Positions 5,866 through 25,079 of a DNA stretch of 32,880 nucleotides are shown here, one piece after another. The position numbers and the translations under genes were made by a program. Under the pieces are notes generated by a model. That model was not told the origin of the DNA and searched no databases. It saw nothing but the letters and a program-made list of their open reading frames with translations. The DNA is from Betaproteobacteria bacterium (GTDB taxonomy: Bacteria; Pseudomonadota; Gammaproteobacteria; Burkholderiales; Burkholderiaceae_C), in assembly GCA_009925925.1 (NCBI GenBank), contig RFQA01000011.1, forward strand, positions 1 to 32,880, given 5' to 3'. Position 1 is the first letter of the stretch, and every line of letters begins with the position of its first letter.

Positions 5866-6552
5866 ATGCCAACCCTCCCCACCCTTTGTGACATTGCTTC
5901 CAGCGCGCGTGCCAAGCGCGAGCGGCGCAAAGACGCACGCCCGGGTGAGTTGCTGGCAGCCGCACTGGAACTGTTTGTGGAAAAAGGCTTTGCCGCCACC
6001 CGCGCCGAAGAAGTCGCCAAGCTGGCCGGCGTGTCCAAGGGCACCTTGTTCTTGTATTTCTCCAGCAAGGAAGAGCTGTTCAAAGCCGTGGTGCGCGAAA
6101 ACATTTCGGGCCGCTTCTCCGAATGGAGCGCCGAGTTGGAAACCTTTGAAGGTAACAGCGCCGACCTCTTGCGCTACTGCATGACGGCTTGGTGGGAACG
6201 CGTGGGCTCCACCAAGGCTTCCGGCATTTCCAAGCTGATGATGAGTGAAGCGGGCAATTTTCCAGAACTTACCGCTTTCTACCAAGAGGAAGTCGTCAAA
6301 CCCGGAAACGACCTGATCCGCCGCGTCTTGCAGCGGGGCGTGGCTTCCGGAGAGTTCCGGCAGTTGAATGTGGAATACGGCGTGTACCTCTTGCTCGCCC
6401 CCATGATGTTTCTGGCCCTGTGGCGCCACTCCATCGGGCCCTGCGTGGCGGGCAATGGAGAACTGGACCCCATTGCTTACCTGAATACCCATATCGACAA
6501 CCTGCTGCTGGGGCTGACAGTCCGCACACCTGCCGCACCCAACGCCTCCTGA
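5866..6552 (+). CDS. TetR/AcrR-family transcriptional regulator
   Basis: LLAAALELFVEKGFAATRAEEVAKLAGVSKGTLFLYFSSKEELFKAVVRE HTH. Confidence 0.93.
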   Translation: MPTLPTLCDIASSARAKRERRKDARPGELLAAALELFVEKGFAATRAEEVAKLAGVSKGTLFLYFSSKEELFKAVVRENISGRFSEWSAELETFEGNSADLLRYCMTAWWERVGSTKASGISKLMMSEAGNFPELTAFYQEEVVKPGNDLIRRVLQRGVASGEFRQLNVEYGVYLLLAPMMFLALWRHSIGPCVAGNGELDPIAYLNTHIDNLLLGLTVRTPAAPNAS

Positions 6553-6556
6553 CACT

Positions 6557-7690
6557 ATGAAACCCTGGATCAAATGGACCACCGTGGCCGTCAGTCTGGC
6601 CGTCGTCGCCGGTATAGGCATGCGGCTCGTCGCCGGCAACAAAGCCAAGAAAGAAGTGCTGGAAAGTCAGCAGGCTGCACTCAAAGTGCCGGTGAGTCTG
6701 GAGCTGGGTGCTGCCGATCTGGTGCGTGCAAACACCGTGGAGCTCACCCGAACCCTGCCGGTGTCCGGCCCGATCAAAGCGGTGAGCTCAGCCTTTGTGA
6801 AAGCCCGTGTCGCCGGCGAACTGCAAGGACTGACCGTGCGCGAAGGCGATATGGTCAAAGCCGGCCAAGTGCTGGCGCGCGTGGACTCCACGGAATACCA
6901 GGCCCGCACCCGCCAAGCACAACAGCAAGCCGAATCCGCCAAAGCGCAGGTGGATATCGCCCGCCGCAGCTTTGAGAACAACCGCAAGTTGGTAGACCAA
7001 GGCTTTATTTCCCAGACTGCACTGGAGTCCTCCAGCGCCAGCCTTGCAGCTGCCGAGGCCTCTTACCGCGCTGCGATGGCGGGCGTGGATGTGGCGGCCA
7101 AATCCCTGGAAGATACGGTGCTGCGCGCACCCATTTCAGGCCAGGTGGCACAGCGCCTGACCCAACCCGGCGAACGCGTTGCGATCGATGCGCGCGTGCT
7201 GGAAATCGTGGACTTGAGCCGCCTCGAGGTGGAAGCCAATCTGGCCGCGGCCGACTCACTGGGCGTGAAACCCGGACAAACTGCGCAACTGACGGTAGAG
7301 GGCTCTGCACAGCGCCTGCAAGCCCGCGTGGCTCGCATCAACCCCAGCGCAGTGGCGGGCAGCCGCTCTGTGCTGGTGTATTTGAGCCTGGAAAAGCCTG
7401 AAGGCCTGCGCCAGGGCCTGTTCGCCCAAGGCGCACTGGCAGTGGGTGTCAGCCGCACATTGGCCTTGCCGGTGAGCGCCATACGTACCGACAAGCCACA
7501 ACCCTATGTGCAGTGGGTGCAGGACAACAAAGTCGCCCACCAGACGGTGGAACTGGGCGAGCGCGGTGATGCAAATGGCGTGGCCATGGTCAGCGTCAAG
7601 GGCATCCCCGAAGGTACTCCGGTGTTGGCGGGCGCAGTGGGCGCCCTGCGTGCGGGAACCGCTATCAAAAACGCAGCAGGTAGCAACTGA
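6557..7690 (+). CDS. RND efflux periplasmic adaptor (membrane fusion protein)
   Basis: VARVDSTEYQARTRQAQQQAESAKAQ and APISGQVAQRLTQPGERV typical of HlyD/AcrA family; next to the RND permease. Confidence 0.92.
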   Translation: MKPWIKWTTVAVSLAVVAGIGMRLVAGNKAKKEVLESQQAALKVPVSLELGAADLVRANTVELTRTLPVSGPIKAVSSAFVKARVAGELQGLTVREGDMVKAGQVLARVDSTEYQARTRQAQQQAESAKAQVDIARRSFENNRKLVDQGFISQTALESSSASLAAAEASYRAAMAGVDVAAKSLEDTVLRAPISGQVAQRLTQPGERVAIDARVLEIVDLSRLEVEANLAAADSLGVKPGQTAQLTVEGSAQRLQARVARINPSAVAGSRSVLVYLSLEKPEGLRQGLFAQGALAVGVSRTLALPVSAIRTDKPQPYVQWVQDNKVAHQTVELGERGDANGVAMVSVKGIPEGTPVLAGAVGALRAGTAIKNAAGSN

Positions 7691-10600
7691 TGTGGTTTAC
7701 CCGCGTTAGCCTCCAGAACCCGGTATTTGCCACCATGGTCATGCTGGCCCTGGTGGTGTTGGGCCTGTTTTCGCTGCAACGTTTGCAGGTCGACCAGTTT
7801 CCGAATATCGATTTTCCGGTGGTGGTGATCATCACCGACTATCCCGGCGCCTCGCCCGAAATTGTGGAGAGTGAAGTCTCCAAAAAAGTGGAAGAAGGCG
7901 TCAACTCGATTGCCGGTATCAATGCCCTGACCTCTCGCAGTTACGAAGGCCAGAGTGTGGTGGTGATTGAGTTTGGCCTGCACATCGACGGCCGCAAAGC
8001 GGCGGACGATGTGCGAGAAAAAGTGGCGGCGGTCAAACCGCTGTTGCGCACCGAAGTCAAAGAACCCCGCGTTTTGCGCTTTGACCCCTCTTCCCGCGCC
8101 GTCTGGTCCGTGGCGGTATTGCCGGATACAACTCAGGGCGGCAAAGCACTGACTGCTGTGGAACTGACCAACTGGGCAGAGCAGAACTTCAAAAAGCGCT
8201 TGGAAAATGTACGCGGCGTAGGCTCCGTCACTTTGGTGGGCGGTACCAAGCGCGAGATCAACCTCTACCTGAACCCGCAGGCGCTGGAGTCCTTCGGCAT
8301 CACGCCGGACCAGGTGGTCACCGCAGTCACCAATGAAAACCAGGACCTGCCCCTGGGCACCATCCACTCCAACGAGCAGGAGCGTGTGATTCAGGTACAG
8401 GCCCGCATGCAGCGGCCAGAAGACTTTGGCAGCATCATCGTGGCCCGCAAGGGCGGTACACCGGTACGACTGGACCAGATCGCCCGCGTGGCCGATGGCG
8501 CCCAGGAGGCAGAAACCCTGGCCCTCTACAACGGCCAGCGCACTCTGCTGATGAACGTGCAAAAGTCCCAGGACGAAAACACCATCGTGGTCGTGGATGG
8601 CCTGGTCAAAACTCTGGCCGAGATGCAAAAACAGCTGCCTCCGGGCGTTCGGCTGGAGCAAATCACCGATGGCTCGCGCCAGATTCGCGTGTCGGTCAAC
8701 AACGTGCGCCAAACGCTGATTGAAGGCGCCGTGCTCACGGTGCTCATCGTGTTTCTGTTTTTGAACTCCTGGCGCTCCACGGTCATTACCGGGCTTACCC
8801 TCCCGATTGCGCTGATAGGCACCTTCCTGTTCATGAACGCCTTCGGCTTCACCATCAACATGATCACGCTGATGGCCCTGTCGCTGTGTGTGGGCTTGCT
8901 GATTGATGATGCGATCGTGGTCCGCGAAAACATCGTGCGGCACGTGCAAATGGGCAAAAATGCCTACAACGCCTCGCTGGACGGCACCCAGGAAATCGGC
9001 CTGGCCGTGTTGGCCACCACCCTCTCCATCGTGGCGGTGTTTCTGCCCATCGGCTTCATGGGCGGCATCATCGGCAAGTTCTTCCACGAGTTCGGCATCA
9101 CCATCGTGGCGGCAGTGCTGATCTCGATGTTTGTGAGCTTCACGCTGGATCCCATGCTCTCGAGCATCTGGCATGACCCCAGTATTGAAAGCCACGGCAA
9201 AGGACATGCTCCGGTCACCTTCTACGACAAGACCATAGGCCGCGTTACCGGCCTGTTTGACCGCGGCACCGAGGCGTTGGCTGAGGGCTACCAAAGCATC
9301 CTGCGCTGGGCTTTGCTGCACAAGCTGGCCACAGTGTTGATCGCCGTCGGCATTTTTGTCGGCAGCATCTTGATGGTGCCGCTGCTGGGCACCGAGTTCG
9401 TGCCCAAATCAGACTTCTCTGAGACATCGCTCACCTTCAACACGCCGGTGGGTTCGTCATTGGAAGTGACGGAGTCCCGGGCCCGGCAGGTCGAGGCCAT
9501 CATCCGCGAGTTCCCCGAGGTGCGTTACACGCTGACCACCATCAACACCGGCAATGCGCAGGGAAAGATTTACGCCAACATTTACATCCGCCTTGTGGAC
9601 CGCAAAGACCGCAGCCTGAGCGTGGACCAGATGTCGGTGAAGCTGCGTCAGCGCCTGCGCAATGTGGCCGGCATCACGGTGACCCACGTGGGCTTGCTGG
9701 ATTCAGTGGGCGGGCAGAAGCAGATTTTGTTCTCCATTCAAGGCCCCGACACGCATGAACTCGAGCGACTCACCGCGGTGGCGCTGGACAAGGTGCGCGA
9801 CGTCCCCGGCCTCGTGGACCTGGACTCCAGCATGAAACCCAACAAGCCCACGCTGGACGTGCGGGTGCGACGGGATGCGGCCTCGGACCTCGGCCTGAAT
9901 GTGGCCCAGATCGGCAGCGCCCTGCGCACATTGATCGCCGGAAAGACCGTGGGCAACTGGCGCGCGCCGGACGACCAAACCTATGACGTCAATGTGCGCC
10001 TGGCACCCGATGCGCGCAATGCCGCGTCTGACCTGCAGCGCCTGCCCTTCACCGTAGGCAGCAATGCCGATGGCAGCCCACGCATCGTGCGCCTGAACCA
10101 GGTGGCCGACGTGCGTGAATCCACCGGCCCGAACCAGATCAACCGCCGCGACCTCACCCGCGAGGTGTCCATCAGCGGCAACGTGTCGGGCCGCTCGGCC
10201 GGCGAGGTGTCGGCCGACATCAAGACCGCGATGGACAGCATCAGCCTGCCGCCGGGCTACAGCTACAAATTCAGCGGTTCCACCAAAGACATGGCCGAAG
10301 CCTTCGGCTACGCCATTTCGGCGCTGGTACTGGCTATCGTGTTCATTTACATGATTCTGGCTAGCCAGTTCAAGAGCTTTTTGCAACCACTGGCGCTGAT
10401 GACCTCCCTGCCGCTCACGCTGATCGGCGTGGTGCTGGCACTGATGATGTTCAACTCCACGCTCTCCATGTTCTCCATCATCGGGGTGGTGATGCTGATG
10501 GGCCTGGTCACCAAGAATGCGATTCTGCTGGTGGACTTTGCCATCCGCGCCCGTGAAGGCGGCACGGACGAACAAGGCCATACCGTGCCCGGCTTGCCCC

Positions 10601-13405: not shown

Positions 13406-13428
13406 GCCTCCCTATCGGAGGCTTTTTT
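13406..13428 (+). terminator. Rho-independent terminator of tolC
   Basis: GCCTCC-CTATC-GGAGGC-TTTTTT; overlaps the last codons of convergent phnN. Confidence 0.8.
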
Positions 13429-13996
13429 GTGCCCGGACTGACCATCCCGGCAGAAAGCCCAAAGCCAACTCCAGCTGGTGCCCGGCATCCTGCAGGCGTG
13501 CATTGTTGTGGATTTCCAGCACCGTCGTGCCTGATGGGCGCTCCAATGGTGGTGCGCGCTCCAGTCGCGCCCGGATGTCTGCTGCACTCTCGCGCCCGCG
13601 TGCCACCAGACGTTCCAGCAATACCTCCGGAGACGCCGCCACGTGCAGCACCACCAGCCCTGGGTTCATGGCAATGGCTTGCGGCAGGTAAGCACGCGAG
13701 CCTGTCACGAACACCCAGCCGGTGCCGGGTGGGCCCCGCAATTCGGAGTGGCGCACGCCATAGTCCAGGCCATTGGCCGACCAGCACAGCCCGAAGCTGC
13801 CAGCTTCGCGGGCGGCTGCAAATGTCTCACGGGTCATCGGCTCGTGCTGCTCTGCACCCGGGTGCGCTGCGCGGGTGATGCAGCGCCGGGCAAAGTGCAC
13901 TCCCGCGTCGGGCGGCAGATGCCCTTTGAGCCACTCCAACACGCTGTCTTTGCCCGCACCTGACGGACCCAGCACATAAATGAGCACCGGGCTCAT
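13412..13996 (-). CDS. phnN: Ribose 1,5-bisphosphate phosphokinase
   Basis: MSPVLIYVLGPSGAGKDSVLEWLKGHLP P-loop, guanylate-kinase-like; in phn locus; ATGA overlap with the upstream gene. Confidence 0.88.
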   Translation of the reverse strand: MSPVLIYVLGPSGAGKDSVLEWLKGHLPPDAGVHFARRCITRAAHPGAEQHEPMTRETFAAAREAGSFGLCWSANGLDYGVRHSELRGPPGTGWVFVTGSRAYLPQAIAMNPGLVVLHVAASPEVLLERLVARGRESAADIRARLERAPPLERPSGTTVLEIHNNARLQDAGHQLELALGFLPGWSVRAQKSLR

Positions 13997-14700
13997 GACG
14001 CCAACGGGAACTGGTCCAGCACCACAAAGTCTGCGCCCGGCTGAGGCTCCGCAAACAAGGTCAGGCTGTCCATGCAGTCGGGCGACTTGCCATCGAAATG
14101 CCGCTGCGCAGCAGTCTGCAGCGCTAGCACCTCGTGGGGCACGCGACCGTGCAGGCTGCCCGTGAGCGACATGTGAAACCGGAAATGCTCGAACACATAC
14201 GGGTAACCCCAAGCCACCAACATCGCGTCTTCGGCGGCGGTCAGCGGCGCTTTGCGGCGGCGCTGCAACTCGGCCTCCGACAGCGGGGCGACCAAGGTAT
14301 GCAGCTCGCGCACACAAGCGGCTGCAATGTGGTCCAGAGCGGCGGTGTCACCCACAGGAGTCAGTGCCAGAAAGTCATCCAAATGGCTCACCTGCAAACG
14401 GGGCATGGGAATGGCGCTCAAGCTCCCGGCCAACTGCGCCATGCGCTCACGCAGTTGCGGCAGTTTCACGCCCGCCGCCAAAGTGAAAGGCGCTTTCAAG
14501 GTGGCGTGCCAGCCATAGCGGCGCGGTGCGGCGGTCAACTCTGCAAGGGCCAAGGGCGACATGCCGTTCACCACGGGCTGCACCCGCAACAATCCATCGT
14601 GCGCACAGCGCCCCAACCACTGGCTGCCGGCTTGCCATGCATCGCTGCCCATGGCGGGGGCGTAATACACCGCATAGCGGTGGTAGTGGGTCTCAGTCAT
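13993..14700 (-). CDS. DUF1045 putative phosphonate metabolism protein, 2H phosphoesterase-like
   Basis: HRYAVYYAPAMGSDAWQAGSQWLGR start; GWHATLKAPF and FRFHMSLTG (two HxT/S-L motifs); between phnF and phnN. Confidence 0.88.
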   Translation of the reverse strand: MTETHYHRYAVYYAPAMGSDAWQAGSQWLGRCAHDGLLRVQPVVNGMSPLALAELTAAPRRYGWHATLKAPFTLAAGVKLPQLRERMAQLAGSLSAIPMPRLQVSHLDDFLALTPVGDTAALDHIAAACVRELHTLVAPLSEAELQRRRKAPLTAAEDAMLVAWGYPYVFEHFRFHMSLTGSLHGRVPHEVLALQTAAQRHFDGKSPDCMDSLTLFAEPQPGADFVVLDQFPLAS

Positions 14701-15445
14701 GGTGGTTCACCATCAGGTTGACGCGGTCCCCGGCAAACCAGGTCAGTGCAAATTCGATCGGTACGCCGGCCGTGTCTACGTTCACACTTTCCACACGCAG
14801 CACCGGCCGGTTCACCGGCTGGCGCAAGTGGGCGGCTACGTCCGCCTCCGGCATTTGGGCGGTGATGCGGCTTTCCTGCCGGGTGTAGTCCGCCACGCCG
14901 GCCGCCTGAAAGGCTGCGGTGATGGAGCCCGTCTGCGCGACCACCGCGTCCAGCCCTTCAAAGCGGGGCAAAGGAAAGGCCCGTTCACTCACATGCAGCG
15001 GCAGGCCTTGGGCCTCGCCCAACACCTCCAGCACCAGCACTTTGCTGCGCGCAGGCAGTGCCAAGGCCGTGGCTTGTGTTTTGGTGGCCCGCTCCGTGCG
15101 CACCGCCAGCACCTGCAAACCGCCTTTGAGCCCGGCATGTGCCAAGTTCTGCTGGTGGCGGGTGCGCTTGGCCAGCATCAGGTCGACTGCAAAGTCTTCC
15201 ACATAGGTGCCGCTGCCCTGAGCGATGCGCACCAACCCTTGGCTGGACAGGCTCGCCAGCGAACGACGGATGGTGTGCCGGTTGACCCCGAACTGTTCGG
15301 CCAGCGCATGTTCCGACGGCAGGCGCTGCCCCGGGCGGTAGGCACCGCGACCGATGGCATCGGCAATGTCGGAGGCGATGCGCGTCCAGAAACTCTCTTT
15401 GGTGCCGCTCTCTGCGGCTGCGTCGATGGAAGTGATGCTTGTCAT
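14693..15445 (-). CDS. phnF: GntR/HutC-family phosphonate operon regulator
   Basis: GAYRPGQRLPSEHALAEQFGVNRHTIRRSLASLSSQGLVRIAQGSGTYV wHTH and UTRA-like C-terminus; divergent from phnG. Confidence 0.9.
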   Translation of the reverse strand: MTSITSIDAAAESGTKESFWTRIASDIADAIGRGAYRPGQRLPSEHALAEQFGVNRHTIRRSLASLSSQGLVRIAQGSGTYVEDFAVDLMLAKRTRHQQNLAHAGLKGGLQVLAVRTERATKTQATALALPARSKVLVLEVLGEAQGLPLHVSERAFPLPRFEGLDAVVAQTGSITAAFQAAGVADYTRQESRITAQMPEADVAAHLRQPVNRPVLRVESVNVDTAGVPIEFALTWFAGDRVNLMVNHHD

Positions 15446-15489: not shown

Positions 15490-15501
15490 TTGTCTATACA
15501 A
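15490..15501. promoter_or_regulatory. Putative PhnF operator TTGTCTATACAA
   Basis: GntR/HutC-type GTnTAnAC core (GTCTATAC) between divergent phnF and phnG; same core upstream of phnC. Confidence 0.65.
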
Positions 15502-15520: not shown

Positions 15521-16036
15521 ATGTTTCACGCATTTGACAATGACGGACCGCCCCGGCACACCACCCGCCCGGACTGGATGGCGCTGCTGGCCAGAGCCCC
15601 GCTGGACCTTCTCGAATCCGCACTCGCCCCGTATGCAACGCAAGCCCCGCAATGGCTGCGCCAGCCCGAAACGGGGCTCTACATGGTGCAGGGACGTGCA
15701 GGCGCTACTGGTGAACGCTTCAACCTCGGTGAAGTCACCGTCACCCGCTGCGCACTGCGCCTACCCTCCGCATCTGCGACCTCCGGTCACACCGTGGGCG
15801 TGGCGTATGTGCTGGGTCGCTCACGCCGCAAGGCCCACCTCGCCGCTGCGGCCGATGCCCTGCTGCAAGACCCTGCCCACCACGATGCGCTGAACGACCA
15901 GTTGCTCCAACCCGTGCGCCGCCACCTGGCTCTGCACAGCGCGCAACGCCACGCCAAAGCACAAAGCACCAAGGTGGACTTCTTCACCGTGGCCCGTGAA
16001 TCCGGCGGCGAAGACGACGAAGGAGACCAGGAATGA
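15521..16036 (+). CDS. phnG: C-P lyase complex subunit PhnG
   Basis: WMALLARAPLDLLESALAPY, GLYMVQGRAGATGERFNLGEVTVTRCALRL, GVAYVLGRSRRKAHLAAAADAL. Confidence 0.93.
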   Translation: MFHAFDNDGPPRHTTRPDWMALLARAPLDLLESALAPYATQAPQWLRQPETGLYMVQGRAGATGERFNLGEVTVTRCALRLPSASATSGHTVGVAYVLGRSRRKAHLAAAADALLQDPAHHDALNDQLLQPVRRHLALHSAQRHAKAQSTKVDFFTVARESGGEDDEGDQE

Positions 16037-16656
16037 ACACCCCCGACCTCAGCACCCTGGGTGCCGGCTTCAGCCACGAAGCACTGGGCAGCCAGGCCGT
16101 GTTCCGCCAAGCCCTGCAAGCCCTGTCGCACCCCGGCCGCTGCATTGCAGTGCCCAGCGATGCTCAAGTGCCACAAGGTGCCCACCCGGCCTCAGCCGCC
16201 TTTCTGCTCGCCATGCTGGACTCGGACTGCCGCGTCTGGCTCTCACCCCGCCTGGCCTCCGGCCCTGCCGCGCTCTGGCTGCAATTCCATACCGGCTGCA
16301 CCGTGGTGCCATCAGCCGCAGACGCTGCCTTCGTCTGGGTCGCGCAAGGCGATGCCATTCCCGCCCTGCACGAACTGGAGCAAGGCTCTGACGCCTACCC
16401 CGACCAGTCCGCCACCTGCGTGATCGATGTGGCCAATCTGACTTCTGCGCATGAGGACGTTGCTTGGGAGCTCAGCGGCCCCGGCATCCAAAGCACCCAA
16501 GCACTCACCGTGCAGGGCCTGCCCACTGACTTCACCCGCCAATGGGCCGCCAACCAAGCGCGCTTCCCGCGTGGAGTGGATGTGTTTCTGGCCAGCGAGA
16601 ACCATCTGGCAGGCCTGCCGCGAACCACGCGCATTGCAATACCCGGAGGACGCTGA
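16033..16656 (+). CDS. phnH: C-P lyase complex subunit PhnH
   Basis: GFSHEALGSQAVFRQALQALSHPGR, ELSGPGIQ, FPRGVDVFLASENHLAGLPRTTRI. Confidence 0.93.
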   Translation: MNTPDLSTLGAGFSHEALGSQAVFRQALQALSHPGRCIAVPSDAQVPQGAHPASAAFLLAMLDSDCRVWLSPRLASGPAALWLQFHTGCTVVPSAADAAFVWVAQGDAIPALHELEQGSDAYPDQSATCVIDVANLTSAHEDVAWELSGPGIQSTQALTVQGLPTDFTRQWAANQARFPRGVDVFLASENHLAGLPRTTRIAIPGGR

Positions 16657-16658
16657 AC

Positions 16659-17753
16659 ATGTACGTTGCCGTCAAAGGCGGGGAAACCGCAATCCTCAAA
16701 AGCTACGAGTTGCTGGCTGCCCAGCGCCGTGGTGACCCGGCGTTGCCGGAACTCAGCATTGCGCAAATCCGGGAGCAGCTCAAACTGGCCGTAGACCGGG
16801 TGATGAACGAAGGCTCGGTGCACGACCCCGAGCTCGCAGCCCTGGCCATCAAGCAAGCCAGCGGCGACCTCGTGGAGGCCATCTTTCTGCTGCGCGCCTA
16901 CCGCGCCACCTTGCCCCGCCTCGGGAATACCGTGCCTTTGAAAACCGAACGCATGCAGCTGGATCGCCGCATCTCGGCCACCTTCAAAGACTTGCCCGGC
17001 GGACAGGTACTGGGCCCCACCTACGACTACACCCAGCGCCTGCTGGACTTCACCTTGCTGGCCGAAGGCCGCACGCCGGTAAGCAGCGCGCCTGCGGCGC
17101 CCGTGGCTGGCACGCAAGCATCTATCACCCCGCGTGTGGTGGATCTGCTCAATGACGAGGGGCTGATCGAAACCCGCCCCATTCCGCCGGGTGACCCTGC
17201 GCCCGTGGACCTGACACGCGAGCCGCTGCGCTTCCCGGCGGCGCGTGCCACCCGCTTACAAAACCTGGCCCGCGCGGACGAAGGCTTTTTGCTTTCCATG
17301 GCGTACTCCACCCAGCGCGGCTACGCCCACAGCCATCCTTTTGTGGGCGAAGTTCGATTAGGCAGCGTGGCAGTGGAGATTGAGCCCGAAGAGCTGGGCT
17401 TTGCCATTTCCATCGGCGACATCGAAATCACCGAATGCGAAATGGTCAACCAGTTCGCCGGCAGCAAGACGGAGCCCCCGCAGTTCACCCGTGGCTACGG
17501 CCTGTCTTTCGGCCACTGCGAGCGCAAGGCCATGGCCATGAGTCTGGTGGACCGTGCGTTGCGCGCGGATGAGTTGGGCGAGGCCATCGAGTCACCCGCA
17601 CAAATGCAAGAGTTTGTGCTCTCACACAGCGATAGCCTGGAGGCTTCCGGCTTTGTGCAACACCTGAAATTGCCGCATTACGTCGACTTCCAGTCCGAGC
17701 TGGAGTTGATACGGAAAATGCGCGCCGCTGCTGTGGAGGACACCACCCCATGA
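16659..17753 (+). CDS. phnI: C-P lyase complex subunit PhnI
   Basis: MYVAVKGGETAILKSYELLAAQRRGD; TQRGYAHSHPFVGEVRLGSVAVEI; ECEMVNQFAGSKTEPPQFTRGYGLSFGHCERKAMAMSLVDRAL. Confidence 0.95.
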   Translation: MYVAVKGGETAILKSYELLAAQRRGDPALPELSIAQIREQLKLAVDRVMNEGSVHDPELAALAIKQASGDLVEAIFLLRAYRATLPRLGNTVPLKTERMQLDRRISATFKDLPGGQVLGPTYDYTQRLLDFTLLAEGRTPVSSAPAAPVAGTQASITPRVVDLLNDEGLIETRPIPPGDPAPVDLTREPLRFPAARATRLQNLARADEGFLLSMAYSTQRGYAHSHPFVGEVRLGSVAVEIEPEELGFAISIGDIEITECEMVNQFAGSKTEPPQFTRGYGLSFGHCERKAMAMSLVDRALRADELGEAIESPAQMQEFVLSHSDSLEASGFVQHLKLPHYVDFQSELELIRKMRAAAVEDTTP

Positions 17754-18667
17754 ACGCCCGACTGGAAACCACCCTGCCGGATACCGGCCACACCGACGAC
17801 GAGGTGCAGCAGCACTTCAACTTCGCGTATCTGGATGAGCGCACCAAACGCATGATCCGCCGCACCATCCTGAAAGCGGTGGCCATCCCCGGCTACCAGG
17901 TGCCTTTCGGTTCCCGCGAAATGCCCTTGCCCTATGGCTGGGGGACCGGTGGCATTCAGGTCACCGCCGCAGTCATCGGCCCGGATGAAGTCCTCAAAAT
18001 CATCGACCAAGGCTCGGACGACACCGTCAACGCGGTCAACATCCGCCGCTTCTTCCAGCGTACGGCCGGTGTGCAAACCACCACCCGCACCGCGGAGGCC
18101 ACGCTGATCCAGACCCGCCATCGCATCCCCGAGACCCCGCTCACCGAAGGCCAGGTCATCGTGTACCAGGTGCCCGTGCCCGAGCCCCTGCAACGGCTGG
18201 AGCCACGCGAAACCGAGACCCGCACCTTGCATGCGCTGGCGGAATATGGCCTCATGCATGTGAAGCTCTACGAGGACATTGCACGGTATGGCCACATCGC
18301 CACCACCTACGACTACCCGGTCATGGTGAACCACCGCTACCTGATGGCGCCCTCGCCTATTCCCAAGTTTGACAACCCGAAGATGCACATGAACCCGGCT
18401 TTGCAGCTCTTTGGAGCAGGCCGCGAAAAGCGCATCTACGCTGTCCCGCCCTACACCGCGGTGGAGAGCCTGGGCTTTGAAGACCACCCCTTTGAGGTGC
18501 AAAAGTGGGACAGCGCCTGCGCCCTGTGTGGCGCGACCGACAGCTTCCTGGACGAAGTGATTACCGATGACGCCGGTGCGCGCATGCACGTGTGCTCGGA
18601 CTCGGACTACTGCCAGTCCCGCCAGGCCGCGCAAGCAGAGCAGGCGCCCTCTGGAGAGGCTGCATGA
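17750..18667 (+). CDS. phnJ: C-P lyase catalytic radical SAM subunit PhnJ
   Basis: FNFAYLDERTKRMIRRTILKAVAIPGYQVPFGSREMPLPYGWGTGGIQVT; CALCGATDSFLDEV...CSDSDYC cysteine set. Confidence 0.97.
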   Translation: MNARLETTLPDTGHTDDEVQQHFNFAYLDERTKRMIRRTILKAVAIPGYQVPFGSREMPLPYGWGTGGIQVTAAVIGPDEVLKIIDQGSDDTVNAVNIRRFFQRTAGVQTTTRTAEATLIQTRHRIPETPLTEGQVIVYQVPVPEPLQRLEPRETETRTLHALAEYGLMHVKLYEDIARYGHIATTYDYPVMVNHRYLMAPSPIPKFDNPKMHMNPALQLFGAGREKRIYAVPPYTAVESLGFEDHPFEVQKWDSACALCGATDSFLDEVITDDAGARMHVCSDSDYCQSRQAAQAEQAPSGEAA

Positions 18668-19107
18668 GTGTTCACATCCGCCAGGCCGGTGAGGCCGATC
18701 TGCCGGCGGTGCTGGCCCTGTATGCCCAGCCCGACCTGGACAACGGCCAAGTGTTGAGCGAAGACGAGGCCCGCGCCGTGTTCGCGCAGTTTGCGTGCTA
18801 CCCCAACTACCGCCTGTTCGTCGCCCTGCGGGACGACAAGGTGGTGGGCACTTTCGCGCTTTTGGTCATGCACAACCTGGCGCATTGCGGCGCGCCCTCC
18901 GCCATTGCCGAAGACGTGGTGGTGGACAAAGCCTGCCAGGGCCAGGGCATTGGCCGCCATATGATGGCCCATGCCCTGCAACAGGCCAAAGCGGCCGGTT
19001 GCTACAAGCTGGCCCTGTCCTCCAACCGCAAGCGCAAAGACGCGCATGCCTTTTACGAATCGCTGGGCTTTCAACAGCACGGCCTGAGCTTTGTGATGGA
19101 GCCCTGA
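18664..19107 (+). CDS. GNAT-family N-acetyltransferase in phn operon
   Basis: QGQGIGRHMMAHALQQAKAAGCYKLALSSNRKRKDAHAFYESLGFQ; ATGA overlap with phnJ. Confidence 0.9.
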   Translation: MSVHIRQAGEADLPAVLALYAQPDLDNGQVLSEDEARAVFAQFACYPNYRLFVALRDDKVVGTFALLVMHNLAHCGAPSAIAEDVVVDKACQGQGIGRHMMAHALQQAKAAGCYKLALSSNRKRKDAHAFYESLGFQQHGLSFVMEP

Positions 19108-19108
19108 C

Positions 19109-19894
19109 ATGCATACCGACCCCTCTACCCCTTTGCTGCAGGTGCGCGGCATCAGCAAGCGCTATGGCGACCGCGTGGCCTTGCAAGATGTGTCTTTTGA
19201 CCTCTGGCCCGGCGAGGTGCTCGCCGTGGTGGGCGAATCCGGCTCGGGCAAGTCCACCCTGCTCAACGCCATCGCCGCCCGCGCCAAGCCGGACGCCGGC
19301 AGCGTGCAGTACTGCACCCGTGAAGCGGGCCTGCAAGAAGTGTTTTTAATGACCGAAGCGCAGCAACGCCTGCTGGCCCGCACCGACTGGGGCTTTGTGC
19401 ACCAGAACGCCGCTGACGGTTTGCGCATGGATGTATCCGCCGGCGCCAATGTGGGCGAGCGCCTCATGGGCCTGGGCGAGCGCAACTATGCGCACCTGCG
19501 TGCTACCGCAGCACAGTGGCTGAGTCGCGTGGAGATCGACCCCGCCCGCATGGACGACACGCCCCGTACGTTCTCGGGCGGCATGCGCCAGCGCCTGCAG
19601 ATCGCCCGCAACCTGGTCACCGAACCGCGCCTGGTGTTCATGGATGAGCCAACCTCCGGTCTGGATGTGTCGGTGCAGGCCCGCCTGCTGGACATGCTGC
19701 GCCAGCTCACCCAGGGCATGCAACTCGCCGCCATCATCGTGACGCACGACCTCGCTGTGGCTCGCCTGCTGGCCCACCGCATGATGGTGATGCAACGTGG
19801 CCGGGTGGTGGAGTCCGGCCTGACCGATCAGCTGCTGGACGACCCCCAGCACCCTTACACCCAACTTCTCGTTTCCTCGGTACTACAGCCATGA
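19109..19894 (+). CDS. phnK: Phosphonate C-P lyase system ATPase PhnK
   Basis: GESGSGKST, FSGGMRQRLQIARNLV, MDEPTSGLDVSVQA; position after phnJ-GNAT. Confidence 0.92.
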   Translation: MHTDPSTPLLQVRGISKRYGDRVALQDVSFDLWPGEVLAVVGESGSGKSTLLNAIAARAKPDAGSVQYCTREAGLQEVFLMTEAQQRLLARTDWGFVHQNAADGLRMDVSAGANVGERLMGLGERNYAHLRATAAQWLSRVEIDPARMDDTPRTFSGGMRQRLQIARNLVTEPRLVFMDEPTSGLDVSVQARLLDMLRQLTQGMQLAAIIVTHDLAVARLLAHRMMVMQRGRVVESGLTDQLLDDPQHPYTQLLVSSVLQP

Positions 19895-20610
19895 GCACAC
19901 CCTTGTTGCAACTCCAGGGGGTAGCCAAGCGCTTCACCCTGCACCACCAATCCGGCGCAGAGCTGGCGGTCATGTCGGACGCCAGTTTTGCGGTGCACGC
20001 CGGCGAATGCGTGGTGCTGGACGGCCCCTCCGGTATGGGCAAAAGCACGCTACTGAAAATGATCTACGCCAACTACCGCGCCAGCGTAGGCTCCATTGCC
20101 GTGACCGACGCGCGTGGCCACACCATCGACATGACCAGCGCCACTCCGCGTGAGCTGGTGCGCATGCGCAAGGAGACCATCGGCTATGTGAGCCAGTTCC
20201 TGCGCGTAATCCCACGGGTACCGGCCATCGATGTGGTGGCAGAGTCCCTGCTGGAGGACACCGCCAACGACCCGCAAGCTGTGGCTGCAGCACGGGATGA
20301 AGCCGGCCGCTGGCTGACCCGCTTGCGTATTCCTGAGCGCCTGTGGCACTTGCCCCCGGCCACCTTTTCCGGCGGGGAGCAGCAGCGCATCAACATCGCC
20401 CGCAACATGATCAAGCCGCGGCCCTTGCTGCTGCTGGACGAACCCACTGCGTCGCTGGATGCGGCCAACACCGACACCGTCATCACCCTGATCCGCGAGG
20501 CCATTGCCCGTGGCGCTGCGGTGGTGGGCATTTTTCATGACGCAGACGTAGGCCGCGCCGTGGCTACCCGCCACATCGACGTCACCCTGTTCCGGAGCCA
20601 GGCCGCATGA
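19891..20610 (+). CDS. phnL: Phosphonate C-P lyase system ATPase PhnL
   Basis: DGPSGMGKSTLLKMIYANYRASVGSI, RKETIGYVSQFLRVIPRVPAIDVVAE, FSGGEQQRINIARNM. Confidence 0.93.
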   Translation: MSTPLLQLQGVAKRFTLHHQSGAELAVMSDASFAVHAGECVVLDGPSGMGKSTLLKMIYANYRASVGSIAVTDARGHTIDMTSATPRELVRMRKETIGYVSQFLRVIPRVPAIDVVAESLLEDTANDPQAVAAARDEAGRWLTRLRIPERLWHLPPATFSGGEQQRINIARNMIKPRPLLLLDEPTASLDAANTDTVITLIREAIARGAAVVGIFHDADVGRAVATRHIDVTLFRSQAA

Positions 20611-21764
20611 GCACTTCAACCTTGTTTACCAACGCTCGCCTGGTGCTGGCCGATGAGGTGCTGAACGGCAGCCTTCTGGCACAGGACGGCCACATTGCCG
20701 AAGTTCAATCTGGTCGCTCGCAAGCTGCAGATGCCATCGATCTGGAAGGGGACTACCTGCTGCCCGGTCTGGTGGAAATGCACACCGACAACTTCGAGCG
20801 CCACCTCATGCCCCGGCCCAAGGTCTACTGGGCAGAACTACCGGCGCTCATGGCGCATGACGCGGAGGTGGCATCGGCGGGCATTACTACCGTGTTTGAC
20901 GCACTGGGCGTAGGCGAGGCCGACACCGAGAGCCTGCGCGGGAGTGCATGGAGCGGTGTTCTTCAAACTATCGATGCCTGCCATGCGCAAGGCTTGTTGC
21001 GGGCAGACCACCACTTGCATGTGCGTTGCGAGCTGCCGGCACCCAACACCATTGACCTGTTCGCACCCTTTGTAGGCCACCCGCGCCTGTCCCTGATTTC
21101 GCTCATGGACCACACACCGGGCCAGCGTCAGTGGGAAGACATTGAGCAGGCTCGCACCTACTACACCGGTAAAAAGGGCTGGAGCCAGCAGAAGTTTGAG
21201 CAGCAAGTTGCTCAGGCCAACGAGCTGCAGGCCCGATACGCCGAGCCACACCGCGCCTACTTTGTGGACTACTGCCGCAGCAACGCCATTGCGCTGGCCA
21301 GCCACGATGACACCACCGTGGCACACGTGGAACAGGCGCATGCCGAGGGTGCCAGCATGTCGGAGTTCCCCACTACCGTGGCGGCAGCCCAGGAAGCGCG
21401 TGCGCGCGGCTTGCGCACCGTCATGGGTGGACCCAATGTGGTGCGAGGTGGCTCCCACTCCGGCAACGTGGCTGCCGCAGAACTGGCCAAGCTGGGGCTG
21501 CTGGACATTTTGTCGTCCGACTATGTGCCGGGCAGCATGTTGAGCGGGGCGATGCGCCTCGTGCGAGATGGTCTGATGACCTTGCCACAAGCCGTAGCGA
21601 CCGTCAGCCGTACGCCGGCTCTGGCCACAGGCCTGAGCGACCGGGGGGCTATCGCTGCGGGCTTGCGTGCCGACCTGATCCAGGTGCGCATGGCGACCCT
21701 GCCCGGCGGGCAGGAACACCCGGTGGTGCGCGCCGTCTGGCGTGAAGGCCGGCGGGTGCTGTAA
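20607..21764 (+). CDS. phnM: Alpha-D-ribose 1-methylphosphonate 5-triphosphate diphosphatase
   Basis: Amidohydrolase fold; LPGLVEMHTDNFERHLMPRPKV, LISLMDHTPGQRQW, ASHDDTTVAHVEQAHAEG, DILSSDYVPGSML. Confidence 0.95.
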   Translation: MSTSTLFTNARLVLADEVLNGSLLAQDGHIAEVQSGRSQAADAIDLEGDYLLPGLVEMHTDNFERHLMPRPKVYWAELPALMAHDAEVASAGITTVFDALGVGEADTESLRGSAWSGVLQTIDACHAQGLLRADHHLHVRCELPAPNTIDLFAPFVGHPRLSLISLMDHTPGQRQWEDIEQARTYYTGKKGWSQQKFEQQVAQANELQARYAEPHRAYFVDYCRSNAIALASHDDTTVAHVEQAHAEGASMSEFPTTVAAAQEARARGLRTVMGGPNVVRGGSHSGNVAAAELAKLGLLDILSSDYVPGSMLSGAMRLVRDGLMTLPQAVATVSRTPALATGLSDRGAIAAGLRADLIQVRMATLPGGQEHPVVRAVWREGRRVL

Positions 21765-21859: not shown

Positions 21860-22714
21860 ATGCACCACGCACTCCGTATCGAGCAACTCAACAAACACTT
21901 TGCCAACGGCAAGCACGCGCTGAACAACATCAACCTCACCGTGGCACAGGGTGAGATGGTGGCTTTGATCGGTGCCTCTGGGTCCGGCAAATCCACGCTC
22001 ATGCGCCACATGGCCGGCTTGGTGTCGGCGGACGCGGGGCCCGGCTCCTTGATTGAGGTAGATGGCTGCTGCGTGCAACAAGGCGGCCGGGTACACCGCA
22101 ACATCCGCCAGGTGCGGGCCCGTATCGGCTTTGTATTCCAGCAATTCAACCTGGTGGACCGACTGCCGGTCCAAGTCAATGTGTTGGTGGGTTTGCTGCA
22201 CCGCATGCCACTGTGGCGCGGGCTGCTGCGTTGGTTCACTGAGCAGGAACGCGCACAGGCCATCGAGGCGCTGCAACGTGTGGGCATTGCAGAATGCCAC
22301 GCCCAACGTGCCTCGACCTTGTCGGGCGGCCAGCAACAACGCGCCGCCATTGCCCGCACGCTGGTGCAAGGCGCGAAAGTGGTGCTCGCGGACGAGCCGA
22401 TTGCTTCGCTGGACCCGGAGTCCTCCCGCAAGGTGATGGAGATTCTGGCCCGCATCAACCGTGAAGACCACTGCACCGTGATCGTGTCGCTGCACCAGGT
22501 CGACATGGCACTCAAGTACTGCCCGCGCGTGGTAGCCCTGAACCAAGGCTGTGTGGTCTATGACGGCCCCGCCAGTGCCCTCACCCCCGACCTGCTGCGC
22601 GAACTCTATGGCGTGCAGGCCGACGAAATTCTGGCGGATGCGCAACGTCCTGCCACTTCCCCGGTGCTCGTGCCGTCTGCCCCTTGGAGCAGCCCGGTGG
22701 CGCAGACCGCTTGA
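21860..22714 (+). CDS. phnC: Phosphonate ABC transporter ATP-binding protein
   Basis: [81 protein letters not shown]. Confidence 0.93.
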
Positions 22715-22745
22715 CCTTCCCTGCCAACCTTTTCAGGAGCTTTCC

Positions 22746-23699
22746 ATGTTGAAAAAAATCTGGGCGACCTCGGTCGCCGCTATCAGCCTCGGCCTGCTGG
22801 CACCCGCAGCCGGTGCACAGGAATTGAACTTCGGCATCATCTCGACCGAATCGTCCCAACAGCTCAAGCAGCAATGGCAACCAGTGCTGGACGCACTGAC
22901 CCAGCAAACCGGCCTTAAGGTCAATGCATTTTTTGCCCCGGACTATGCAGGCGTGATTGAAGGCATGCGCTTTAACAAAGTGCAGTTCGCCTGGTTCGGC
23001 AACAAGTCCGCCATGGAAGCTGTGGACCGTGCCAACGGTGAAGTGTTTGCCAAGGTCGTCAACATCGACGGCACCGAAGGCTACTACTCCCACCTGATTG
23101 TGCACCGCGACAGCGCCCTCAAGTCGGTGGACGACGTGCTCAAGAATGCCAAGAACCTGAACTTCGGCAACGGTGACCCGAACTCCACCTCCGGCTTCCT
23201 GGTGCCCGGTTACTACGTGTTCGCCAAGAACAATGTGGACACCAAGAGCGCCTTCAAGGTCGCCCGCTCTGCCAACCACGAAACCAACGCCATGGCCGTG
23301 GCCAACAAGCAAGTGGACGTGGCCACCAATAACAGCGAAACCCTGGCCAAGCTCGAAAACACCATGCCCGAAAAAGTCAAGGAATTGCGCGTGATCTGGA
23401 CTTCTCCCCTGATTGCCTCCGACCCCTTGGTGTGGCGCAAGGACCTGCCGGACGCGACCAAGGCTAAGCTCAAGGCCTTCTTCACCGGCTATGGCAAGAC
23501 CAACCCTGCTGAGCGCGAGATCATGGCCAAGTTGAATTGGTCCACCTTCAAGGAATCCAACAACAGCCAGTTGCTGCCGATCCGCCAGCTCGACATGTTC
23601 AGCAAGCGCACCAAGCTGGAAGCCGACACCACCCTGGCTGAAGACGACAAGAAGCGCCAGCTGGCTGAGCTGGACAAGAAACTCGCTGAGCTGAAGTGA
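22746..23699 (+). CDS. phnD: Phosphonate ABC transporter substrate-binding protein
   Basis: Signal peptide [72 protein letters not shown]. Confidence 0.94.
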
Positions 23700-24517
23700 T
23701 GTCCACCACCCCGGCCCCCACTGTGACGCCCCGCCTGCCCGCTACGGTTGGCGCCGCTACCTCGAAGCAAGGTCTGGGGTGGCACCTCTCTTGGGCCTTG
23801 TTGCTGGCCCTGCTCGCCATCTCGTGGAAAGGCGCAGACATGCGCCCTGCCGACCTGGTCCGCGACTCCGGCAACATGGCCACTTACCTGGCAGACTTTT
23901 TCCCCCCAAAGTTCGGTGACTGGCGCAACTACGTGCAGGAAATGCTGGTCACCCTGCAGATCGCCCTCTGGGGCACTGCCCTTGCAGTGGTTACAGCCAT
24001 TCCCATGGCGCTGTTGGCCTCGGCCAACCTGGTGCCCTGGTGGGTCTACCAGCCCATGCGCCGCCTCATGGACGCCACCCGTGCCATCAATGAGATGGTG
24101 TTTGCGATGCTGTTTGTCGTGGCAGTGGGCCTGGGCCCGTTTGCCGGTGTGCTGGCATTGTGGATTCACACCAGCGGCGTGCTGGCCAAGCTGTTCTCGG
24201 AGGCGGTTGAAGCCATAGACCCCCAACCGGTGGAAGGCATTCGTTCCACAGGGGCTAGCGCGCTGCACGAAATCATCTACGGCGTCATTCCGCAAGTCAT
24301 GCCCTTGTGGATTTCCTTCACGCTGTACCGCTTTGAGAGCAATGTGCGCTCCGCGTCTGTGGTGGGCATGGTCGGGGCCGGGGGCATCGGCGTGGTGCTG
24401 TGGGAAATCATCCGTGGCTTCCAGTACGCAGAAACCTGCGCCGTCATGATCATCATCGTGGCCACGGTCAGCATCATCGATCTGGTGTCCGCCCGCATCC
24501 GCAAAGCCCTGGTCTGA
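23699..24517 (+). CDS. phnE: Phosphonate ABC transporter permease
   Basis: [94 protein letters not shown] at 23699 overlaps the phnD stop. Confidence 0.93.
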
Positions 24518-24527
24518 GGAGACTGAT

Positions 24528-25079
24528 ATGGCATTGGACATGGAAGACATCGCCGCCTTGTTTGACAAACGTGCAGGCAGCCAATACGGCCGCGAGCCGG
24601 TGAACCAGATGGAGCACGCTCTGCAATGCGCCCTGCTGGCGGAACAGGCCGGCGAGAACGATGAAACCGTAGTGGCCGCGCTACTGCACGACATCGGCCA
24701 CCTGATTGCAGCCGAGCGTGATGGCGTCATGGACGACACCCAGGAGAAGGACGACCTGCACCAGTACGTGGCGCTGCCGTTTTTGCGTGCCCTGCTGCCA
24801 GATGCCGTGCTGGAGCCCATACGCCTGCATGTGGATGCCAAACGCTACCTGTGCGCCACCGAACCCAGCTACTGGGCTGCACTCTCCGAAGGTTCCCAAC
24901 GCAGCCTGGAACTCCAAGGTGGCCCGTTCAGCGAAGCGGAGTTGCAAAGCTTTATAGCCCAACCCTTTGCCGAAGAGGCGGTGCGTCTGCGCCGCTACGA
25001 CGACCTGGCCAAGGTGCCCGGCAAAGCGACCCCGGACTTCAAGTACTTCGCAGAGAAGCTCAGCGCCGTGAGCGCGTAA
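24528..25079 (+). CDS. Phosphonate-associated HD-domain protein, probable PhnZ/TmpB-type diiron oxygenase
   Basis: SQYGREPVNQMEHALQCALLAEQ (Tyr-x-x-Glu plus NQMEHALQCA) and AALLHDIGHL HD motif, then LHVDAKRYLC; last gene of the phnCDE unit. Confidence 0.88.
   Translation: MALDMEDIAALFDKRAGSQYGREPVNQMEHALQCALLAEQAGENDETVVAALLHDIGHLIAAERDGVMDDTQEKDDLHQYVALPFLRALLPDAVLEPIRLHVDAKRYLCATEPSYWAALSEGSQRSLELQGGPFSEAELQSFIAQPFAEEAVRLRRYDDLAKVPGKATPDFKYFAEKLSAVSA

Follow-up and report, generated by a model that had tools for sequence, protein, structure and literature searches.

A DUF1045 protein of the 2H superfamily as the likely stand-in for PhnP in a betaproteobacterial C-P lyase locus

Introduction

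Which enzyme acts between PhnJ and PhnN in a C-P lyase locus that lacks phnP? The question is raised by the window analyzed here, a stretch of 32,880 nucleotides (contig RFQA01000011.1 of assembly GCA_009925925.1) from a bacterium of the Burkholderiales, in which a gene encoding a 235-aa DUF1045 protein directly precedes phnN. The original prediction, made from the sequence alone, held that this protein is a 2H phosphoesterase that replaces the cyclic phosphodiesterase PhnP. Our analyses indicate that the proposal is very likely right but not new, since the same idea is already in print, under the names 'rcsF' or DUF1045, in publications from 2013, 2021, and 2023.

Results

The window contains a complete C-P lyase locus (Table 1) in which phnF-DUF1045-phnN on the minus strand are divergent from phnGHIJ-GNAT-KLM-CDE and an HD-domain oxygenase gene on the plus strand. 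The end of phnF (stop at 14693) overlaps the start of the DUF1045 gene (14700) by 8 bases, and the DUF1045 stop codon (13995-13993) is interlocked with the phnN ATG (13996-13994) as ATGA, just as had been predicted. From these overlaps, we read the three genes as a single putative transcription unit. The range 13412-14700 originally assigned to the feature does include the DUF1045 gene, but spans two genes, as its first part (13412-13996) is phnN. Within the divergent promoter between phnF and phnG, the near-palindrome TTGTCTATACAA reads TTGTATAGACAA on the opposite strand, and the pattern TNGTNTANACNA recurs in 65 of the 138 divergent regions that could be compared, versus a background of 0.03 per kb. 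The GNAT gene between phnJ and phnK recurs across many phn loci. The HD-domain oxygenase gene closes the phnCDE genes, and an oxidative phosphonate route may therefore accompany C-P lyase.

Table 1. Features of the phn locus in the window, and DUF1045 paralogs of the Rhizobiaceae (positions refer to their own loci)
Feature	Position	Strand	Evidence or remark
phnN, ribose 1,5-bisphosphokinase	13412..13996	-	TIGR02322 E 6e-44, 149.9 bits, slightly below cut-off 156
DUF1045 / 'rcsF' 2H phosphoesterase	13993..14700	-	235 aa; H65-x-T67, H176-x-S178; proposed phosphoribosyl 1,2-cyclic phosphate phosphodiesterase
phnF, GntR/UTRA regulator	14693..15445	-	TIGR02325 above cut-off
Near-palindrome TTGTCTATACAA, phnF/phnG divergent promoter	15490..15501		candidate PhnF operator, putative binding
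phnG	15521..16036	+	TIGR03293 above cut-off
phnH	16033..16656	+	TIGR03292 above cut-off
phnI	16659..17753	+	PF05861 E 2e-160
phnJ, C-P lyase	17750..18667	+	PF06007 E 6e-151
GNAT acetyltransferase, remote PhnO-like	18664..19107	+	PF00583; PRK10146 (PhnO) 57.6 bits, cut-off 142 not reached
phnK	19109..19894	+	TIGR02323 above cut-off
phnL	19891..20610	+	TIGR02324 above cut-off
phnM, RPnTP diphosphatase	20607..21764	+	TIGR02318 and NF011984 above cut-off
phnC	21860..22714	+	TIGR02315 above cut-off
phnD	22734..23699	+	TIGR03431 above cut-off
phnE	23696..24517	+	TIGR01097 above cut-off
HD-domain oxygenase of phosphonate operons (PhnZ/TmpB relatives)	24528..25079	+	TIGR03276 above cut-off
Rhizobial paralog, R. 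leguminosarum (L208)	8001-8708		urate-allantoin operon
Rhizobial paralog, S. meliloti (L209)	6001-6798		urate-allantoin operon
Rhizobial paralog, L033, L039, L065			urate-allantoin operon

The 235-aa protein belongs to the DUF1045 family, as it matches the PF06299 profile with 164.2 bits (E 3e-48, cut-off 24.3) and, over its full length, the TIGR03223 model 'putative phosphonate metabolism protein' with 243.6 bits (E 2e-72), a near miss of the curated cut-off of 248.95 bits. A genome-wide profile search found the window's own copy to be the only PF06299 member of the host, and the nearest named relative is encoded by a Rhodoferax MAG (75% identity), which makes a host within the Comamonadaceae probable. 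Both HxT/S motifs of the 2H superfamily are present, H65-A-T67 within YGWHATLK (His codon 14508-14506) and H176-M-S178 within FRFHMSLTG (His codon 14175-14173), and the His codons are exactly where they had been placed previously. With one paralog clade set aside, the alignment contains 147 non-redundant relatives, many of them close ones, in which H65 and T67 are found in 147/147 and H176 and S/T178 in 146/146, with one gap. Judged from the alignment, such conservation is not due to chance.

Further support for membership in the 2H superfamily comes from close relatives, as 41/65 weakly match the LigT_PEase profile and 18/65 weakly match 2_5_RNA_ligase2. A sequence search of the PDB yielded no relative of the protein (best E 0.33), and therefore its fold was compared using an AlphaFold model built from a 65-sequence alignment (pLDDT 93, pTM 0.89). 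The top matches were the Arabidopsis Appr>p phosphodiesterase structures 1jh6, 1jh7, and 1fsi (E 1e-5 to 1e-3), followed by Usb1, YjcG, and LigT, all of which are 2H proteins; indeed, at E <= 0.001 the PDB gave 12 matches, each to a named 2H enzyme or 2H-like protein. The motifs, the profile matches of relatives, and the predicted fold agree in placing the protein within the 2H superfamily, and the modeled fold together with the conservation pattern points to cyclic-phosphodiester chemistry on a ribose 1,2-cyclic phosphate.

Searches with the PhnP model TIGR03307 at E <= 1e-3 found no PhnP in the window or in the draft genome (3.86 Mb, 465 contigs, 94.6% complete). The first result bears out the earlier claim that the window lacks a PhnP-like ORF, and the second argues against both a phnP elsewhere in the genome, which had been named beforehand as refuting the proposal, and a second, hidden PhnP. 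Being a 2H protein, the DUF1045 protein itself falls outside the PhnP family, which is defined by TIGR03307 and a metallo-beta-lactamase fold. It may work like PhnP, yet it is not a PhnP.

The distribution of the two proteins was examined in an even draw of 398 Pseudomonadota genomes, 104 of which encode PhnJ. Within these 104, DUF1045 is found in 77 and PhnP in 25, while none encode both and two encode neither. The 38 PhnJ genomes from the window's own order are similarly divided (DUF1045 in 25, PhnP in 10, both in one, neither in four), and the single genome with both (G299) carries its DUF1045 gene and a second phnM on a different contig from the PhnP operon. Thus, the frequent co-occurrence that had been regarded as evidence against replacement is not seen. 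PhnP assignments in these comparisons were separated by a clean gap, with true PhnP scoring 296-433 bits and all other TIGR03307 matches scoring <=108 bits; the latter form a separate group and were treated as general metallo-beta-lactamases. On the PhnJ tree, the DUF1045/PhnP states require only two changes, or roughly two independent switches, because each operon type is inherited or transferred as a unit. Since so few changes are required, Fisher p-values were not used as a measure of evidence strength. An independent-pairs test on the same tree yields two pairs only, and the raw exclusivity statistics overstate the case for replacement.

Operon arrangements count in favor of replacement, as DUF1045 varies in its position. 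At least four arrangements exist: phnF-DUF1045-phnN divergent from phnG, phnM-DUF1045, DUF1045-phnM-phnN, and phnN with an opposed DUF1045 and with phnM. The named record of S. meliloti pSymB reads phnCDEE-DUF1045-phnM-phnN. The position of PhnP is constant, always after phnN. Coupling of DUF1045 to phnN, as originally proposed, therefore holds for the window, but across the family the gene is tied neither to phnN alone nor to C-P lyase alone.

Two of the four genomes of the order that seemingly encode neither enzyme are explained by contig edges: one contig (G193) is cut at phnM, where its sister genome (G163) carries DUF1045 and phnN, and the other (G097) begins within phnI. Genomes G227 and G277, also with neither, are 91-94% complete. 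Two genomes of one family (G689 and G693; loci L047 and L048) possess C-P lyase genes and phnN without PhnP or DUF1045; a third kind of replacement may operate there, or the operon may be decaying.

DUF1045 also exists outside of C-P lyase. In the phylum sample, PhnJ is absent from 11 of the 88 genomes with DUF1045, while in a sample enriched for unlinked copies, 20 of 81 DUF1045 entries, about a quarter, have no nearby phn gene. DUF1045 adjoins phnM in four PhnJ-less genomes (L053, L055, L060, L063), in three of them along with phnN, and some of the remaining ones have no phn neighbors. Where a phnM-DUF1045(-phnN) arrangement occurs without PhnJ, it may be what is left of a C-P lyase operon that has been lost, or it may salvage ribosyl phosphates independently of the lyase. 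In the Rhizobiaceae, a DUF1045 paralog is located between an FAD oxidoreductase gene and puuE-uraD-(allA)-uraH in a urate-allantoin operon (Table 1); L064 also belongs to this group of loci. Of the six copies in this paralog clade, five have a defect in at least one HxT/S motif and two retain neither histidine; R148 and Y166, conserved in all or nearly all other relatives, are missing from all six. By sequence comparison, the paralog serves as an internal control, marking T67, R148, Y166, S/T178, and the histidines as residues under selection in phn-linked copies. Given a paralog with such eroded catalytic motifs, DUF1045 alone does not prove function as a phosphodiesterase of phosphoribosyl cyclic phosphate (PRcP), and a Pfam DUF1045 match by itself is insufficient for that annotation.

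Discussion

The lack of phnP in the genome, the lack of a co-occurrence pattern, the 2H fold, and the conservation of the motifs all support the view that the DUF1045 protein replaces PhnP, presumably acting on PRcP. In what is very likely its role, the protein would be a 2H-fold phosphodiesterase in which H65 and H176 serve as general acid and base, assisted by T67 and S178. The ester at O2 would be hydrolyzed with no metal involved, while the conserved basic residues R8, K69, R147, and R148 together with Y62/Y166 would hold the phosphates. Ribose 1,5-bisphosphate would then pass to PhnN, the gene of which appears to be translationally coupled to DUF1045. Formation of this product would call for the same regiochemistry as that of the plant Appr>p enzyme.

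The literature on phn loci has arrived at a similar view, under the name 'rcsF' or DUF1045 (PMC3840354, PMC5649143, PMC10574752, PMC8235418). Martinez et al. in 2013 singled out the 2H protein 'rcsF', encoded in a cluster without phnP, as the probable counterpart of PhnP, and their fosmid B3_TF_MPn_2, which carries rcsF and no phnP, enabled an E. coli phnHIJKLMNOP deletion strain to grow on methylphosphonate as well as ethylphosphonate, 2-aminoethylphosphonate, and others (PMC3840354). Growth implies that the PhnP reaction came either from the cluster or from the E. coli background. In a 2023 review, a SEED survey of 54 operons found phnP in 27 and rcsF without phnP in 16 (PMC10574752). DUF1045 has also been termed a putative phosphoribosyl cyclic phosphodiesterase (PMC8235418), and a DUF1045 protein from a phn locus was raised under phosphorus stress (PMC10132767). 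Our literature search, which covered only a minority of the subscription journals, found neither an assay of a purified DUF1045 protein, nor a knock-out of its gene alone, nor a solved structure.

Several other explanations deserve consideration. DUF1045 could be a broader phosphodiesterase of ribose cyclic phosphates or 2',3'-cyclic nucleotides that was recruited to phn loci, with PRcP as one of several substrates. The copies in PhnJ-less genomes and the orphan copies described above would fit such an enzyme, as would the substrates of the enzymes closest in fold, which are cyclic phosphates of RNA or ADP-ribose. We nevertheless regard this scenario as unlikely, though not negligible, because DUF1045 is strongly associated with PhnJ (77/104 genomes with PhnJ versus 11/294 without) and the orphans of one family (f101) belong to the same clade as operon-linked copies. 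Several of these orphan genomes keep PhnJ without PhnP, which would fit a simple relocation of the gene. Far less probable is a role for DUF1045 at another pathway step or in regulation, with an unrecognized cyclic phosphodiesterase replacing PhnP. The role of DUF1045 is deduced from sequence and model, and the G689 and G693 genomes hint at a third solution, but a 2H fold with fully conserved catalytic residues fits the one missing step, and a fosmid with rcsF and without phnP made up for all the missing functions. As for a PhnP residing in the unassembled part of the genome, with DUF1045 being incidental, the draft state of the assembly would permit it. However, PhnP is encoded within 20 kb of phnJ in 25/25 phylum and 10/10 order genomes, whereas the entire phn locus is within the window and has none, making this explanation highly improbable.

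With replacement of PhnP as the preferred reading, DUF1045 would close the one gap in the breakdown of phosphonates and glyphosate by C-P lyase for most alpha- and beta-proteobacteria bearing the pathway. Gene counts that employ phnP as a marker miss the DUF1045 users, which comprise 77 of the 104 sampled PhnJ genomes. More speculatively, and with rather low probability, a small family of enzymes for ribose 1,2-cyclic phosphates could have DUF1045 at its root, with phnM-DUF1045(-phnN) acting on another ribosyl compound without C-P lyase and the urate-operon paralog drifting away from catalysis toward a function in binding or regulation.

Compared with the known DUF1045/'rcsF' phn loci, the window copy is one more member, alike in family, locus type, and proposed role; nothing essential differs, and its gene is placed between phnF and phnN, the reading frames of which it overlaps. 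E. coli PhnP (TIGR03307) shares the proposed reaction and pathway position, but is a metal-dependent enzyme with a metallo-beta-lactamase fold unrelated to DUF1045. E. coli LigT/ThpR and other 2H proteins (LigT_PEase, 2_5_RNA_ligase2) share the superfamily, but unlike DUF1045 they have RNA or nucleotide substrates and no link to phn genes. The Arabidopsis Appr>p cyclic phosphodiesterase has both the 2H fold and the paired HxT/S motifs in common with DUF1045, and it opens a ribose 1'',2''-cyclic phosphate, the same group as in the PRcP made by PhnJ, to the 1''-phosphate. It differs from DUF1045 in its sequence (11-12% identity), its tRNA-splicing context, and its substrate, which is built on ADP-ribose rather than ribose 5-phosphate.
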